A model generated the notes under the pieces. It saw nothing but the letters and a program-made list of their open reading frames with translations. It was not told the DNA's origin and did not search any database. DNA of 41,142 nt from NCBI GenBank assembly GCA_902589115.1, contig CACIRS010000010.1, positions 1 through 41,142 of the forward strand. Reading direction: 5' to 3'. Of the stretch, positions 211 through 37,422 are shown one piece after another (position 1 is the stretch's first letter; the number at the start of each line of letters is the position of its first letter). This DNA comes from an uncultured Prochlorococcus sp. GTDB taxonomy: Bacteria; Cyanobacteriota; Cyanobacteriia; PCC-6307; Cyanobiaceae. Both the position numbers and the translations under genes were made by a program.

Positions 211-477
211 TTATTTAATGCTTTTAGAATTGCTATGAAGCTTTAGGAGCTCAACTGTTCTTATATGTTTAGTTCTAGAAAAAAAAACGTACTTTATTAC
301 CTTGCCAGGACAAACCGCTAAACCTCTGACCTCTTCTGAATGGGACTCCACACTTAAAACCTTGACCTTGGTGCCAAAGTTACTCGATAATTTTTCCATG
401 ACTTCTTCGCGAAGAGTATCTATGGAACAAATCATTGCTGGTAAAGATCTATATTCATTTCGTAGCAAGATCAGCAA
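211..477 (-). CDS. Small conserved cyanobacterial protein, function unknown
   Basis: An 88-codon frame begins at a TTG at 477; an internal ATG at 435 would give 74 residues. The protein is mixed alpha/beta in character, with a hydrophobic start (LILLRNEYRSLPAMIC) and a C-terminal GLAVCPGKVIKYVFF strand. No signal peptide or membrane segment is seen. It is divergent from the DUF2103 gene, and the longest forms of the two frames overlap at 435-477. The overlap disappears if the DUF2103 gene starts at 507. I recognise the style of a short conserved picocyanobacterial protein but no function. The frame on the other strand at 302-502 looks like its shadow. Confidence 0.6.
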   Translation of the reverse strand: MLILLRNEYRSLPAMICSIDTLREEVMEKLSSNFGTKVKVLSVESHSEEVRGLAVCPGKVIKYVFFSRTKHIRTVELLKLHSNSKSIK

Positions 478-506
478 ATTTCGACCACTTAGCAGGCTCT
501 AATGAT

Positions 507-782
507 TTGGGAAGACTTGTAATAACACATAGTTCCTACCTGGAAGGATTAATTCCAATACTAGAGAAATTAGCAAAAAAACAAGGAATTAAGACAGTTA
601 CTCCTGGAGTTATTGGCTCTTCAAAAGGAAGATGTCAAAGCTTGCGAGTAAAAATATCATCATCAATTAATGGTGGATATAAGCTAATAGCCAGAAGAGG
701 AAAAACCGTCCAAGAGGTATTTGTGATTACAGAAGTAGAAAAAATAGATTTAGAAAATATAATAAAGGATTTAACTAAGTAA
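507..782 (+). CDS. DUF2103 (putative metal-binding) protein
   Basis: This protein of about 91 residues belongs to the cyanobacterial DUF2103 family, often labelled metal-binding. Key stretches are GRLVITHSSYLEGLIPIL at the start, KTVTPGVIG in the middle and ARRGKTVQEVFVIT near the end. The last of these is the family hallmark. I place the start at TTG 507 because the conserved domain begins in the next codon and the divergent neighbour occupies the sequence up to 477. An upstream TTG at 435 would add 24 poorly conserved-looking residues. No strong Shine-Dalgarno site decides between them. The 3' end overlaps the convergent permease gene by 8 bases. Biochemical function is unknown. Confidence 0.75.
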   Translation: MGRLVITHSSYLEGLIPILEKLAKKQGIKTVTPGVIGSSKGRCQSLRVKISSSINGGYKLIARRGKTVQEVFVITEVEKIDLENIIKDLTK

Positions 783-25320: not shown

Positions 25321-25857
25321 ATGAAGATAGTAGAACATAAGAAAAATCAAGGGATGGCTCTACCAGAGGTAATTGTTGCTGTAATTATGCTTGCTGCATT
25401 TACAGGTATATTTGTTACAATGACAGAGTATATATCAAAATTTTTCAAACTTACTGAAGACTATTCTAAAGCTAATAAATCTAGCGGGCTACTAATAGAT
25501 CAACACAAAATTAGAATAGCAATGGACAGTTGGGTAGATATATTTAGCCAAGTAGGCTATTCAAAATCTGATTTAAAAGAAATAGTTAAACTAGGATGTT
25601 CTAATATTCCATATATTGATTGGGATCTACCTGGTGAAAGACATGAGTTGCCAAATGGATACCAATTCTGTGTAGGTGGAACTCGATTCGATGAAAGTAA
25701 CATCTTAGATTGGTACGATTTAACTAAGAAAAAAACAGCAAAACCTGGAATTTATGTAATATACGCAAAACCATTAAAGGCTTCTAATGCAGCATTACCT
25801 CTAAGAAGAGTTTTCTGCAGACCAAAGCCCTATTGCATAGACACATCATCACAATAA
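25321..25857 (+). CDS. Type IV pseudopilin (PilV-like)
   Basis: This is a 178-residue prepilin. The class III signal is MKIVEHKKNQG|MALPE, with cleavage after G11, E at +5, and a hydrophobic helix (VIVAVIMLAAFTGIFVTMTE). The C-terminal globular part has cysteines (VKLGCSN, YQFCVGG and paired RVFCRPKPYC near the end). Minor pilins of this sort prime the pilus or sit at its tip. It should be processed by PilD (33910). It ends two bases before the pilM ATG. Confidence 0.85.
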   Translation: MKIVEHKKNQGMALPEVIVAVIMLAAFTGIFVTMTEYISKFFKLTEDYSKANKSSGLLIDQHKIRIAMDSWVDIFSQVGYSKSDLKEIVKLGCSNIPYIDWDLPGERHELPNGYQFCVGGTRFDESNILDWYDLTKKKTAKPGIYVIYAKPLKASNAALPLRRVFCRPKPYCIDTSSQ

Positions 25858-25859
25858 CT

Positions 25860-27653
25860 ATGACAAGCTCATCCAAAGAAACCTTACTATCATTAGAATT
25901 CAATGATATTCTAAATTTATTTAAAAAATACCGAAGACAAATATCTAAAAGATTTGTATTGATAGAATTCGCAAAAAACTACATAACCATAGCGGAAGCC
26001 CAATTTAGAAACCACAAAATACAAATAAGAAAAATTAAAAGGGAAATGTTACCTAAAGAAGCTATTGAAAAAGGTATACCAACAGATCCAGAAACAATGG
26101 CAGAACTAATTAGAGATATTATGACAGAACAAAATATTTATACACTCAGAGCAGCTTTAATTATACCCACTGAATCCGCATATACAAGAATAATTAAATT
26201 GCCTATTAACCTTTCTATTGAAGAAGCATACGAATATGTTGCAAATCCTTTGTCAGATATACAAATACCTATTCCTATACAACAATCCGAATTTTACCTA
26301 AATCCTGTTCCTAAAAATAAGGGTTCTAATAAAAATAGTCAAAAATATTTCTTGTCATCAGTGCCTAGAAAAACAATCAACACACTTCTAAAAACAATAG
26401 AACTATCCGGCCTTCAATTATACTTTATAGATCTTGAATTCAATTGCCAACTAAGGTTAATCAGTAAAGAAGTCTCACAATTAAAACAAAATGAACGAGT
26501 ACTACATTTAGAACTACTTACCGATTGTACTCATTACACATTAGCTGGACAATCAGGTCCAATAGATATAAAGAGATTGACCTCTATTAGGAATTATCCT
26601 GATCCATTTGTAAAATATAGCTCAGAAGAGATAGAGAATATAAAAGAAGAAGATAATAACAAGAGTACGACTAAATACTTATCAATTACAGAATTAGATT
26701 TACGAGCTCTATTAAAACAAATAGTTAATAGAATAATTAAACTTAAGGCTGCATCTCCAAACTCATCAATAACAAAGATATTTCTTTCTGGTGTAAATGC
26801 TTCTCATCCTGGCATTACAAAAATAGTAGGCAATACATTAGGCATACCAACATTCCTAATTTCTTCATCGAACAATCCGTACATAAGTAATCTAGATTTT
26901 TCGCCAGAAATTATGTTAGAACAAAGCTTAGGAAGCATAGTTGGAATAGCTTATTCAATAACTAATAAAGACAGTCGTATAGATAATGATCTTCAAGCAG
27001 GAGATATATTCTATGTGGATTCATTTATGCCAAAATCCGAGAAAGATATCTCATCTATTTACAAAAATGAAATTTCTAACAAAGAATTAAGATCACAAAC
27101 ATTTAGGAATACAAAAAAACTAGAGAAAAAATCCAAGAATACAGATACTGTAATTAATAAGACTAGTGAAAAGGTAGATTTAAAAGGCTTAAACTTAGGG
27201 AATAATAAAGATAATAACAATGTAAGAATTGATAGTAAGAAGTTAAATCCTGACGAAAAGATTTCCATAGATAGCAATAATACTTATAATACAGAAATTG
27301 ACTTATCATTAAATAAAGAAACAAAAGATAAAAATTCGGAAACACTAATTAATTCTGATAAACAAGCTATAAATTCATCAGAACAAGATATTTCTACTGT
27401 TGAATCTAAAAAAAGTAAAGATTCTGTTCAAGAAAATAGTAAAGGAAACAATACAGATATTGTTAATGATTTGGAAAACAAAAGAGATAACATAATAACC
27501 GATTTTACTTTAGATACAAAAATATTAGATTCTAAAAGTGAAGACTCAAAAAAAAGTAATACACCTAACAATGCAGATGAATTACTAAAGGATTCTAAAA
27601 GTGATCAAACAAACGATGATGATTTTACGCTTGATAAATCCTTCTTAAAATAA
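25860..27653 (+). CDS. pilM: Type IV pilus assembly ATPase-like PilM with long C-terminal extension
   Basis: ATG 25860 gives 597 residues; an upstream TTG at 25833 would overlap the pseudopilin gene. Residues about 30-370 follow the actin-like PilM fold. FVLIEFAKNYITIAEAQF is the first phosphate strand, IRDIMTEQNIYTLRAALIIP follows, and KIFLSGVNASHPGITKIVG is the later nucleotide-binding turn. PilM is cytoplasmic and binds the PilN tail. From about 400 the protein becomes a very long S/N/K/D-rich tail (nearly 200 residues), absent from typical PilM (about 350). The tail is probably disordered. pilM is the last gene of this operon instead of the first of pilMNOPQ, as elsewhere. The stop is 39 bases from the convergent pilC stop. 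Confidence 0.85.
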   Translation: MTSSSKETLLSLEFNDILNLFKKYRRQISKRFVLIEFAKNYITIAEAQFRNHKIQIRKIKREMLPKEAIEKGIPTDPETMAELIRDIMTEQNIYTLRAALIIPTESAYTRIIKLPINLSIEEAYEYVANPLSDIQIPIPIQQSEFYLNPVPKNKGSNKNSQKYFLSSVPRKTINTLLKTIELSGLQLYFIDLEFNCQLRLISKEVSQLKQNERVLHLELLTDCTHYTLAGQSGPIDIKRLTSIRNYPDPFVKYSSEEIENIKEEDNNKSTTKYLSITELDLRALLKQIVNRIIKLKAASPNSSITKIFLSGVNASHPGITKIVGNTLGIPTFLISSSNNPYISNLDFSPEIMLEQSLGSIVGIAYSITNKDSRIDNDLQAGDIFYVDSFMPKSEKDISSIYKNEISNKELRSQTFRNTKKLEKKSKNTDTVINKTSEKVDLKGLNLGNNKDNNNVRIDSKKLNPDEKISIDSNNTYNTEIDLSLNKETKDKNSETLINSDKQAINSSEQDISTVESKKSKDSVQENSKGNNTDIVNDLENKRDNIITDFTLDTKILDSKSEDSKKSNTPNNADELLKDSKSDQTNDDDFTLDKSFLK

Positions 27654-35269: not shown

Positions 35270-35290
35270 TAGTTTTAAAGAGAATTAAGC

Positions 35291-35322
35291 GTGTTTTGGG
35301 AAACACCCCAATTACAAAGGGG
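35291..35322. promoter_or_regulatory. Tandem hairpins in the pilA leader
   Basis: GTGTTT-TGGG-AAACAC (35291-35306) and CCCC-N9-GGGG (35306-35322) are adjacent hairpins. In pilA mRNA they end 21 bases before the ATG. They could form an attenuator, an mRNA-protecting cap or a target of a small RNA. No T run follows on the pilA strand, so simple termination is unlikely. Confidence 0.5.
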
Positions 35323-35351
35323 AGTTCTCTAATAATAGACCAATAATGTGG

Positions 35352-35438
35352 ATATGGCCATGTAAAACACCCTAGGCAGACTCATTCCGCTGGAAGAATT
35401 CTGAGGCCACTAAGGCAGGTTGCGGTTGCTGGCCATAT
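35352..35438. promoter_or_regulatory. Long-range imperfect hairpin in the pilA leader
   Basis: ATATGGCCA (35352-35360) is perfectly complementary to TGGCCATAT (35430-35438), enclosing 69 bases. Inside, 35370-35375 and 35410-35415 pair as a six-base stem only on the minus strand, where a G-T wobble replaces a C-A mismatch. Within that lies a smaller stem (CTCA/TGAG and TTCC/GGAA). The element lies 83-169 bases before the pilA ATG. A cis-regulatory RNA or separate small RNA is possible. Confidence 0.45.
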
Positions 35439-35746
35439 TTCTCTGGCTGGAGTCCAACAAATATCGTTGTTTCAATGAAAATAAATGCTGGCTAATGAGA
35501 CAAATGTGACGTAAACCTTGCCTAAAGTAAATCTTCCCAAAGGCATTAATATGAATCCTGTGGATGGGATTATGTAAATACTGGTGTCTTTAGTACCCAA
35601 CGCAATTATTGGAAAGTTTAGTTATTTTAATTTAAAGAAAAAATCATTTAAATTAACTAAATTATCTAATTAACTTAAGTTTTAAAGTGATTTATATGTG
35701 TTTTATCCATAGCTTAATTATTTTTTCTAGTACAGTAACCTTATAT

Positions 35747-35775
35747 TTCAACAGATAAGTCTGTGTCCATATAAT
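35747..35775 (+). promoter_or_regulatory. Promoter candidate before the GC-richer region
   Basis: TATAAT (35770-35775) is a perfect -10, with a weak -35 (TTCAAC, 35747-35752) 17 bases upstream. It predicts plus-strand transcription from about 35782, directly into the hairpin-rich stretch that has no convincing ORF. Confidence 0.45.
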
Positions 35776-35781
35776 GTTAAA

Positions 35782-36220
35782 TACCGATCTCTTGGACCCC
35801 CACCCCACCACTAGTTAAATGAGGAGAAGGATGGGTTCAAAGGTATCCGTATCCATTCTCATTAAGCCTCAGTAGGTACCTAAAGAGACAAATAAGATTA
35901 ACCAGTTCTACTAAACTATTATCTAAATCCATTGTGCTACAACTAGTTATAGAGTTAGTACTGGTAGGACCACCCTGAAAACTAGACCCGACTGCACCAG
36001 GCAGAACCCTTGTGATGCAGTCAGTTACGCCTAGCGAACCACCTTGCCGTGCAGCCCCAGTAGCATCGACCTGGTAACACCAGAAGAGGAATCAAAGTGA
36101 GGCTTCGTTTCCGATCATGCCGGTTTACGTTACGTTCACGACAGCTTCCTCAAGTCGAAAGAGAGTCAGATCAGAGCACTAGAAAAGGCTTTCACCAACA
36201 GAGCAGTTGATATAGAGCAT
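35782..36220 (+). ncRNA. Possible structured RNA, unidentified
   Basis: This stretch, between pilA's upstream region and purK, is visibly richer in G and C than any intergenic DNA here. Hairpins include GAGAAGGAT (35824-35832) with ATCCATTCTC (35851-35860), GACTGCA/TGCAGTC (35990-35996 with 36016-36022) and CTGGT-AAC-ACCAG (36071-36083). No hallmark of RNase P RNA, SRP RNA or a tmRNA tag is found. Cyanobacterial 6S RNA is reported near purK, but I cannot confirm that here. A decayed gene is the alternative, since short coding-like frames exist (for instance up to 36230). Confidence 0.3.
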
Positions 36221-36228
36221 ACTACTAA

Positions 36229-37422
36229 TTAATTAACTGAGTACATTGGCCAAATGGATCGCACTAATTCAAGTGCCTTGAATGCCTCTACTTTTCTAGC
36301 CTGACTATCTTGACTATTTAACAAAACGGTAACATGACCTAGTTTTCTTCCTGGTATTTCCGAAGTCTTACCATACCAGTGAAGATTTAAAGACTCATGT
36401 TGACGAAGTTTCTCCAATCGATTTTGTATTGGCAAAGTATCTGTATTAGAAAGACCTAATAAATTAACCATTAATGCTCCAGGTACAATCATTTTTGGAT
36501 CAGGTATTGGCAAATCTGCAGCAATACAGAGTTGCTGATCAAATTGGCTACTGTTACAAGCTTCAATTGAAAAGTGAGCAGAGTTATGCGTTCTTGGTGC
36601 TATTTCATTAACCATTAATCCTTCTTTTCCATAAAAGAATTCGATAGCTATTACTCCAATATAATTTAATTTATTAAGAATTGAAAGAGCAATATTATAG
36701 GTTAAAGCTTCAACATCTTGCCCTACCGAGGCTGGCGCAAGTACCCAATCACAAACATTTTGAGCTTGAGAAGTTTCAACTAGTGGAAAAGTTCTTACTA
36801 TTCCAGTCCTGTCTCGGGATGCAACTATTGCTAATTCTTGATCATAATCAACCCATTTCTCTAAGAACCAATCGCGAGGATTTACATTTTTGATCAAATC
36901 ACTTAAAGCATTAATATCTTTTATAATTTTTGTTCCCTTTCCATCGTAGCCCCCCCTACCAGACTTAGCCATTAAAGGGAAATTCCAACCATAAGGTAAT
37001 TTTAAAGAATCAATTTCTTTTGAATCAAGTCTTAGCCAATCTGGCCCAGATATATTCAGCTGATTTAATAATTGCCTCTGTGAGATCTTATCTATCAAAG
37101 GTTCTAGTGCTGACAAGCTAGGTACAAATAGATTATTTTCTCTATCTATTTTTTTTAATCCAGATATATTTACCCATTCGTTCTCAAAGGTTACACATTT
37201 GCAATCAGTTATTAACTTTTTAGTGCCTGATATATCTGTTGAACTTGCCACCACAACTTTATTGGACTCAAGAGCTGCTGGATCTGACTCTGATCCAGTT
37301 TGAACTACTATTTTTATAGCTCTTTTTTTTGCCGCTTTCACTAGCATTTGCGCTAGTTGTCCTCCACCTACTACTCCAAGGGGGCTTTTTTGAATTCTCT
37401 GAGATGGTGAAGTGCTGATCAT
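36229..37422 (-). CDS. purK: 5-(carboxyamino)imidazole ribonucleotide synthase PurK
   Basis: This 397-residue ATP-grasp enzyme carries out the ATP-dependent carboxylation of AIR to N5-CAIR in purine synthesis. The N-terminal GVVGGGQLAQMLVKAA is the family's nucleotide-site loop, PLMAKSGRGGYDGKG is the ATP-grasp glycine loop, and NEIAPRTHNSAHFSIEAC is the catalytic block. The end (WYGKTSEIPGRKLGHVTVL) is also typical. Length is normal. It is divergent from aroB across about 300 bases. Confidence 0.95.
   Translation of the reverse strand: MISTSPSQRIQKSPLGVVGGGQLAQMLVKAAKKRAIKIVVQTGSESDPAALESNKVVVASSTDISGTKKLITDCKCVTFENEWVNISGLKKIDRENNLFVPSLSALEPLIDKISQRQLLNQLNISGPDWLRLDSKEIDSLKLPYGWNFPLMAKSGRGGYDGKGTKIIKDINALSDLIKNVNPRDWFLEKWVDYDQELAIVASRDRTGIVRTFPLVETSQAQNVCDWVLAPASVGQDVEALTYNIALSILNKLNYIGVIAIEFFYGKEGLMVNEIAPRTHNSAHFSIEACNSSQFDQQLCIAADLPIPDPKMIVPGALMVNLLGLSNTDTLPIQNRLEKLRQHESLNLHWYGKTSEIPGRKLGHVTVLLNSQDSQARKVEAFKALELVRSIWPMYSVN

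Follow-up and report, generated by a model that had tools for sequence, protein, structure and literature searches.

The question raised by this locus is what occupies a stretch of about 440 bases (positions 35782–36220) beside purK in 41,142 nucleotides of contig from an uncultured Prochlorococcus sp., the whole of which is referred to here as the window. The original prediction described it as one gene-less block of distinct composition and proposed a possibly new structured RNA, read from the plus strand behind a TATAAT. The composition is indeed exceptional (46.2% GC vs. 32.3% for the window, at the top of 2036 sliding 439-nt windows), and no ORF of ≥ 40 aa overlaps the stretch. It is thus real and unusually GC-rich, but it is not an unknown RNA: an Rfam search, which had been suggested as a check together with a covariance analysis in relatives, returned a full-length match to 6S RNA (RF00013) on the minus strand, and a match to a known RNA had been named in advance as grounds for giving up the headline claim. 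What we propose instead is that the stretch probably consists of a minus-strand 6S RNA gene and its 3′ flank, that the 6S gene would be an attachment site for mobile islands, and that the flank in the window resembles the left end of such an island.

The 6S RNA gene downstream of purK

The features on which the following text draws are:

36229–37422, minus strand: purK (397-aa ORF), upstream of 6S on the same strand
36032–36212, minus strand: almost certainly 6S RNA (Yfr7 / ssaA), by the full RF00013 model and covariation in 20 sequences
36039–36072, minus strand: 3′ part of 6S corresponding to the core repeated in relatives, 34/34 nt identical to both copies in genome G020
35990–36022, minus strand: terminator-like hairpin directly after 6S (arms 35990–35999 and 36013–36022, 90% complementary)
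35962–35971, minus strand: single GGTCCTACCA motif, resembling the iterons after 6S in G100 and G066
35397–35807, plus strand: mobile-DNA debris, the decayed end of a small Cys-rich ORF (~35397–35622) plus spacer
435–782, plus strand: DUF2103 gene (PF09876, E 9e−18), the usual downstream neighbour of 6S

The RF00013 match scored 69.5 bits against a gathering cut-off of 46.4, covered model positions 1–187 of 187, and was the sole RNA over its Rfam cut-off in the whole 41-kb window. Other Rfam families gave nothing up to E = 5 in positions 35270–36300 searched with permissive filters, a yfr6 copy beside 6S, as in SS120, was looked for in the same 35270–36300 segment and rejected for lack of a match, and no tRNA was detected in the window. 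Across 20 aligned sequences, both sides had changed in at least one sequence for 23 of the 49 predicted consensus pairs, and the long stem with a central bubble is present in the Rfam alignment. Since the window sequence on its own folded at the shuffled level (z −0.48), the 6S identity rests on model, covariation, and place. As for the latter, the original prediction had pointed to the purK neighbourhood of cyanobacterial 6S, and rightly so: the gene lies downstream of purK on the minus strand, in agreement with the published cyanobacterial arrangement, in which Yfr7/ssaA is located downstream of purK in four marine strains (PMC1242208). Across 40 genomes, 34 had a 6S RNA scoring over the cut-off, one of them being that of the window, and relatives of purK were found at 42 loci in the genome contigs (best 61% identity).

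The gene shares with cyanobacterial 6S (Yfr7 / ssaA / 6Sa) the full-length model match, the strand and the position downstream of purK. The RNA itself shows no difference, whereas in the alignment with relatives its promoter region differs from their TTAAATT-like sequence, and its flank adjoins mobile-element debris, unlike known 6S genes. RNAs of this family mimic an open promoter, bind the RNA polymerase holoenzyme in this way, and are released through synthesis of a short product RNA; by analogy, the window 6S would presumably bind the holoenzyme and be released via its product RNA in the same manner.

An unknown structured plus-strand RNA of ~440 nt could draw on the high GC content and on the TATAAT, which does exist (35770–35775, plus strand), but this motif lies on the strand opposite to 6S and amounts to no more than chance, the three promoter-like sites comparing with a shuffled mean of 2.8 (sd 1.8), and it was not kept in the homologous DNA of another genome (G050), where it reads TATAAC. 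Furthermore, 181 of the 439 nt are occupied by the minus-strand 6S, and the 250 nt outside it fold at the shuffled level on both strands (z −0.40 and −0.93). The block also fails to behave as one unit, as its GC content differs piecewise (49.7% in the 6S part at 36032–36212, 44.0% in the 3′ flank at 35782–36031, and 35.3% at 35808–35960). Such an RNA is ruled out by the Rfam match to 6S, and we would give it next to no chance of being real; the observation of an odd stretch was partly confirmed and its interpretation partly supported.

The 3′ flank of 6S and the debris beyond it

The 250 bases of the stretch that are not 6S form its 3′ flank, composed of the terminator-like hairpin, one repeat motif, unmatched DNA, and then the debris. 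Hairpins of differing sequence could be seen by eye at the same place after 6S in the alignment of relatives. The GGTCCTACCA motif, a candidate arm-type recombinase site, has its sole exact occurrence on either strand of the window here, and it is at this motif (35962) that the identity to G020 DNA (90%) stops. The core at 36039–36072 is present as a single copy in the window, and tandem iterons were not detected in the window's 6S flank (score 5, shuffled p 0.78). No match of weight was obtained for 35808–35960 in the sequence searches made; a degraded recombinase was considered for this segment and rejected, the only similarity being a 15-nt match to a G050 gene (13/15, E 0.48). Repeats of the flank elsewhere in its own genome gave weak matches only (best E 0.22 and 1.04). 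With regard to a phage origin, a 531-bp region of the locus was unmatched in 50,697 phage records, as was the recombinase of genome G106 described below, and a 20-nt core had no exact match among viral contigs.

The debris (411 bp) begins 225 bp downstream of 6S and aligned with 82% identity over 418 columns to G050 (L114:1818–2232), where the match starts within a Cys-rich ORF of 104 aa and reaches the final codons of a gene for a PF00589 tyrosine recombinase, which adjoins two tRNA genes. In the window, the copy of the Cys-rich ORF contains an in-frame stop and has lost its start region. Apart from the window's own genome, G050 was the only one of 300 family genomes in which the block was matched at length, and 13 others matched ≤ 84 bp. 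A second GC-rich patch of the window (35350–35449, 52%) is part of the same decayed ORF.

Repeats of the 6S 3′ end beside tyrosine recombinases in relatives

Genome G020 has a second copy of the 6S 3′ end 3.4 kb further downstream; a truncated protein is encoded next to it, which matches DUF6538 weakly (E 5e−4, under its cut-off) and may represent the start of a recombinase. A 34-nt core allowing ≤ 3 mismatches was matched in 6 of 400 genomes, few because the core sequence varies, and therefore each genome's own 6S tail was used as query. This comparison covered 60 6S loci, for most of which it extended over 15 kb downstream. Own-tail repeats at E < 3e−4 were recovered in 4 of the 60 loci (G020, G106, G143, and G180). 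Across the 60 loci, the reverse strand gave no repeats below 3e−4, and neither the 6S 5′ half nor the purK tail was repeated at E ≤ 0.005. The insert in G106 measures 9.7 kb and encodes an uninterrupted recombinase of 433 aa, which reached the PF00589 cut-off (27.1 bits) on its first 400 residues. Its relatives were found in 27 of 300 genomes (30 loci), and at nine of these loci, in eight genomes (G106, G179, G287, G170, G022, G159, G100, and G212), the recombinase start is preceded by a 6S tail within ~250 bp. These nine rank within the 13 best-scoring rows, and no tail was found at any of the remaining 21 loci; of the four tail-less loci in the best 13, one ends with its contig (G123) and three sit elsewhere (a second G170 copy and those of G183 and G115). 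These last three, being recombinases of the same family without a 6S tail, count against 6S as the attachment site.

Both copies of the ~45-nt 6S tail could be placed in eight genomes, at distances of 3.4–40 kb (G020 3.4 kb, G179 6.2 kb, G100 7.2 kb, G106 9.7 kb, G287 10.5 kb, G170 15.5 kb, G212 ~22 kb, and G022 ~40 kb), and in G159 the distal copy was found alone, with no 6S located there. In these eight genomes a tyrosine recombinase adjoins the distal copy (truncated in G020, split in G179), and the recombinase genes start just inside it. The G022 protein (452 aa) diverges at its C-terminal end, so the catalytic tyrosine was not seen in the alignment. A single clade for the 6S-linked recombinases was not supported: 6S linkage requires two changes on a tree of 17 recombinases, a result that 103 of 500 label shuffles equalled. 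The second G170 recombinase (L229, G170:C2:39083–40336) is a close sister of the 6S-linked one without a 6S tail, and GTGGGG-type repeats were noticed by eye before its start.

Matching short repeats at both island ends were present in six of nine genomes (G170, G179, G106, G100, G123, and G022), at about +39 to +97 after 6S and again near the far end, ~80 nt before the distal 6S copy where that copy is present. Many of them are tandem with 12–13-nt spacing, and such iterons could serve as arm-type sites for the recombinase. Any tandem pattern at threshold was found in 11 of 73 6S flanks vs. 2 of 361 control segments. The flank of the window did not reach the threshold, and two of the 11 (L171 and L175) resemble other repeat kinds. 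In addition, uninserted sites were sought for G100, G179, G106, G287, G170, and G020. In G070, the right flank of the G100 island continues straight from the 6S end, and nearly uninserted relatives were identified for G179 (G148), G106 (G009), and G287 (G161, G126, and G103), with no empty site for G170 and G020 among the loci compared. The right flank of the G106 island also matches G129 (L253) at ~+6.5 kb from its 6S (90%), which may mean that G129 carries another insert at the same site.

The repeats might alternatively have arisen by plain duplication or gene conversion, given that some are diverged and close to 6S (G143 at +360, 83%; G180 at +636, 75%) and that four loci also had repeats at E < 3e−4 of internal control segments, of which up to five were taken per locus; the weak repeats in G143, G180, and G110 were left out of the eight genomes. 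However, it is the 6S 3′ end that is copied in every case, with the 5′ half and the purK tail unrepeated at the threshold given above, the recombinase genes begin just within the distal copy, the iterons match at both ends, and uninserted relatives exist, all of which makes duplication or conversion very unlikely. Recombination at 6S would have made the repeats, and the 6S 3′ end of marine picocyanobacteria is very probably an attachment site in these relatives. Tyrosine recombinases would act on the final ~45 nt of the 6S gene; the incoming element would bring a replacement 3′ end, and the old one, displaced, would mark the far edge. The 6S RNA would stay whole because of this replacement.

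tRNA and tmRNA genes are already known to receive islands at their 3′ ends (PMC12424338), and the proposed islands at 6S have in common with these a recombinase at one end, a direct repeat of the target 3′ end, a target restored by the incoming copy, and uninserted relatives. They differ in their target, the gene of 6S RNA instead of a tRNA or tmRNA gene, and recombinase loci L202, L204, and L205 contained no tRNA. The tycheposons of Prochlorococcus, in the same organisms, likewise carry cargo and a tyrosine recombinase, but they are described as integrating at tRNA genes (seven tRNAs; PMC10872708), which is not the case here, although tycheposons may have a 6S site as well. The 6S RNA itself is known; among the matches listed in the literature searched, no report of its gene as an attachment site or target for islands was found, and absence from print is not claimed.

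The interval between 6S and the DUF2103 gene

Of 72 genomes, 30 have a DUF2103 gene in reversed orientation in the DNA examined downstream of 6S, 13 of these 30 at 28–500 bp and others at up to 16.2 kb, and it was not met in the DNA examined for the remaining 42. In the window it is 35.2 kb away, and the interval holds type IV pilus genes, acsF, and many unnamed genes. An ORF with RTX calcium-binding repeats (PF00353; 9533–10744) also lies there. Pilus genes occur near 6S beyond the window genome too, with pilQ-like genes 9.7 and 11.7 kb downstream of 6S in L168 (G053) and L179 (G092), respectively, and G053 has a relative of the protein encoded at 25833–27653 of the window 13.9 kb downstream of its 6S.

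The interval offered no distal 6S repeat (none better than E 0.065 in positions 1–35950) and no recombinase; the genome's single PF00589 match lies on a different contig (C1), and a relative of the G106 recombinase was not found in this genome (71% complete). The 6S gene, the repeats with recombinases in relatives, and the debris are read directly from sequence, whereas an insertion in the window itself is inferred. With neither distal repeat nor recombinase in the interval, no tandem iterons after 6S, and 35808–35960 unmatched in the searches made, the locus could be an ordinary 6S gene with a plain, fast-evolving flank that never received an island, its neighbours having changed through other rearrangements. 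We regard this as unlikely, given the debris 225 bp downstream of 6S, the exact GGTCCTACCA motif at the place expected for an iteron, and a DUF2103 gene displaced by 35 kb instead of 28–500 bp. The same three observations speak for an insertion scar, against which it must be said that the debris resembles DNA beside a tRNA-linked recombinase and not a 6S-linked one. On balance, we cautiously favour the scar: the flank would be the left end of an island (6S core, hairpin, and one arm-type motif), followed by mobile-DNA debris.

With the 6S 3′ end as attachment site, the 6S–DUF2103 interval would become filled with islands. We consider it fairly likely that islands at this site carry their own 12–13-nt iterons at both ends, that the interval is a lineage-wide hotspot, and that the 35-kb interval of the window, pilus genes included, grew there. 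If true, the gene of a global transcription regulator would double as a landing site for islands in highly abundant ocean phototrophs, and insertion could alter the 6S terminator or the 6S level. Transferred genes could also be sought in the 6S flank, and the recombinases would be candidate integration tools for hosts that are hard to engineer.

As a separate observation, Rfam placed a Glutamine-II riboswitch aptamer inside yfr6 of SS120 and MED4 (L104:945–1003 and L105:595–657), two genomes identified through published coordinates, in keeping with a short reading frame that has been reported within Yfr6 (PMC1242208).
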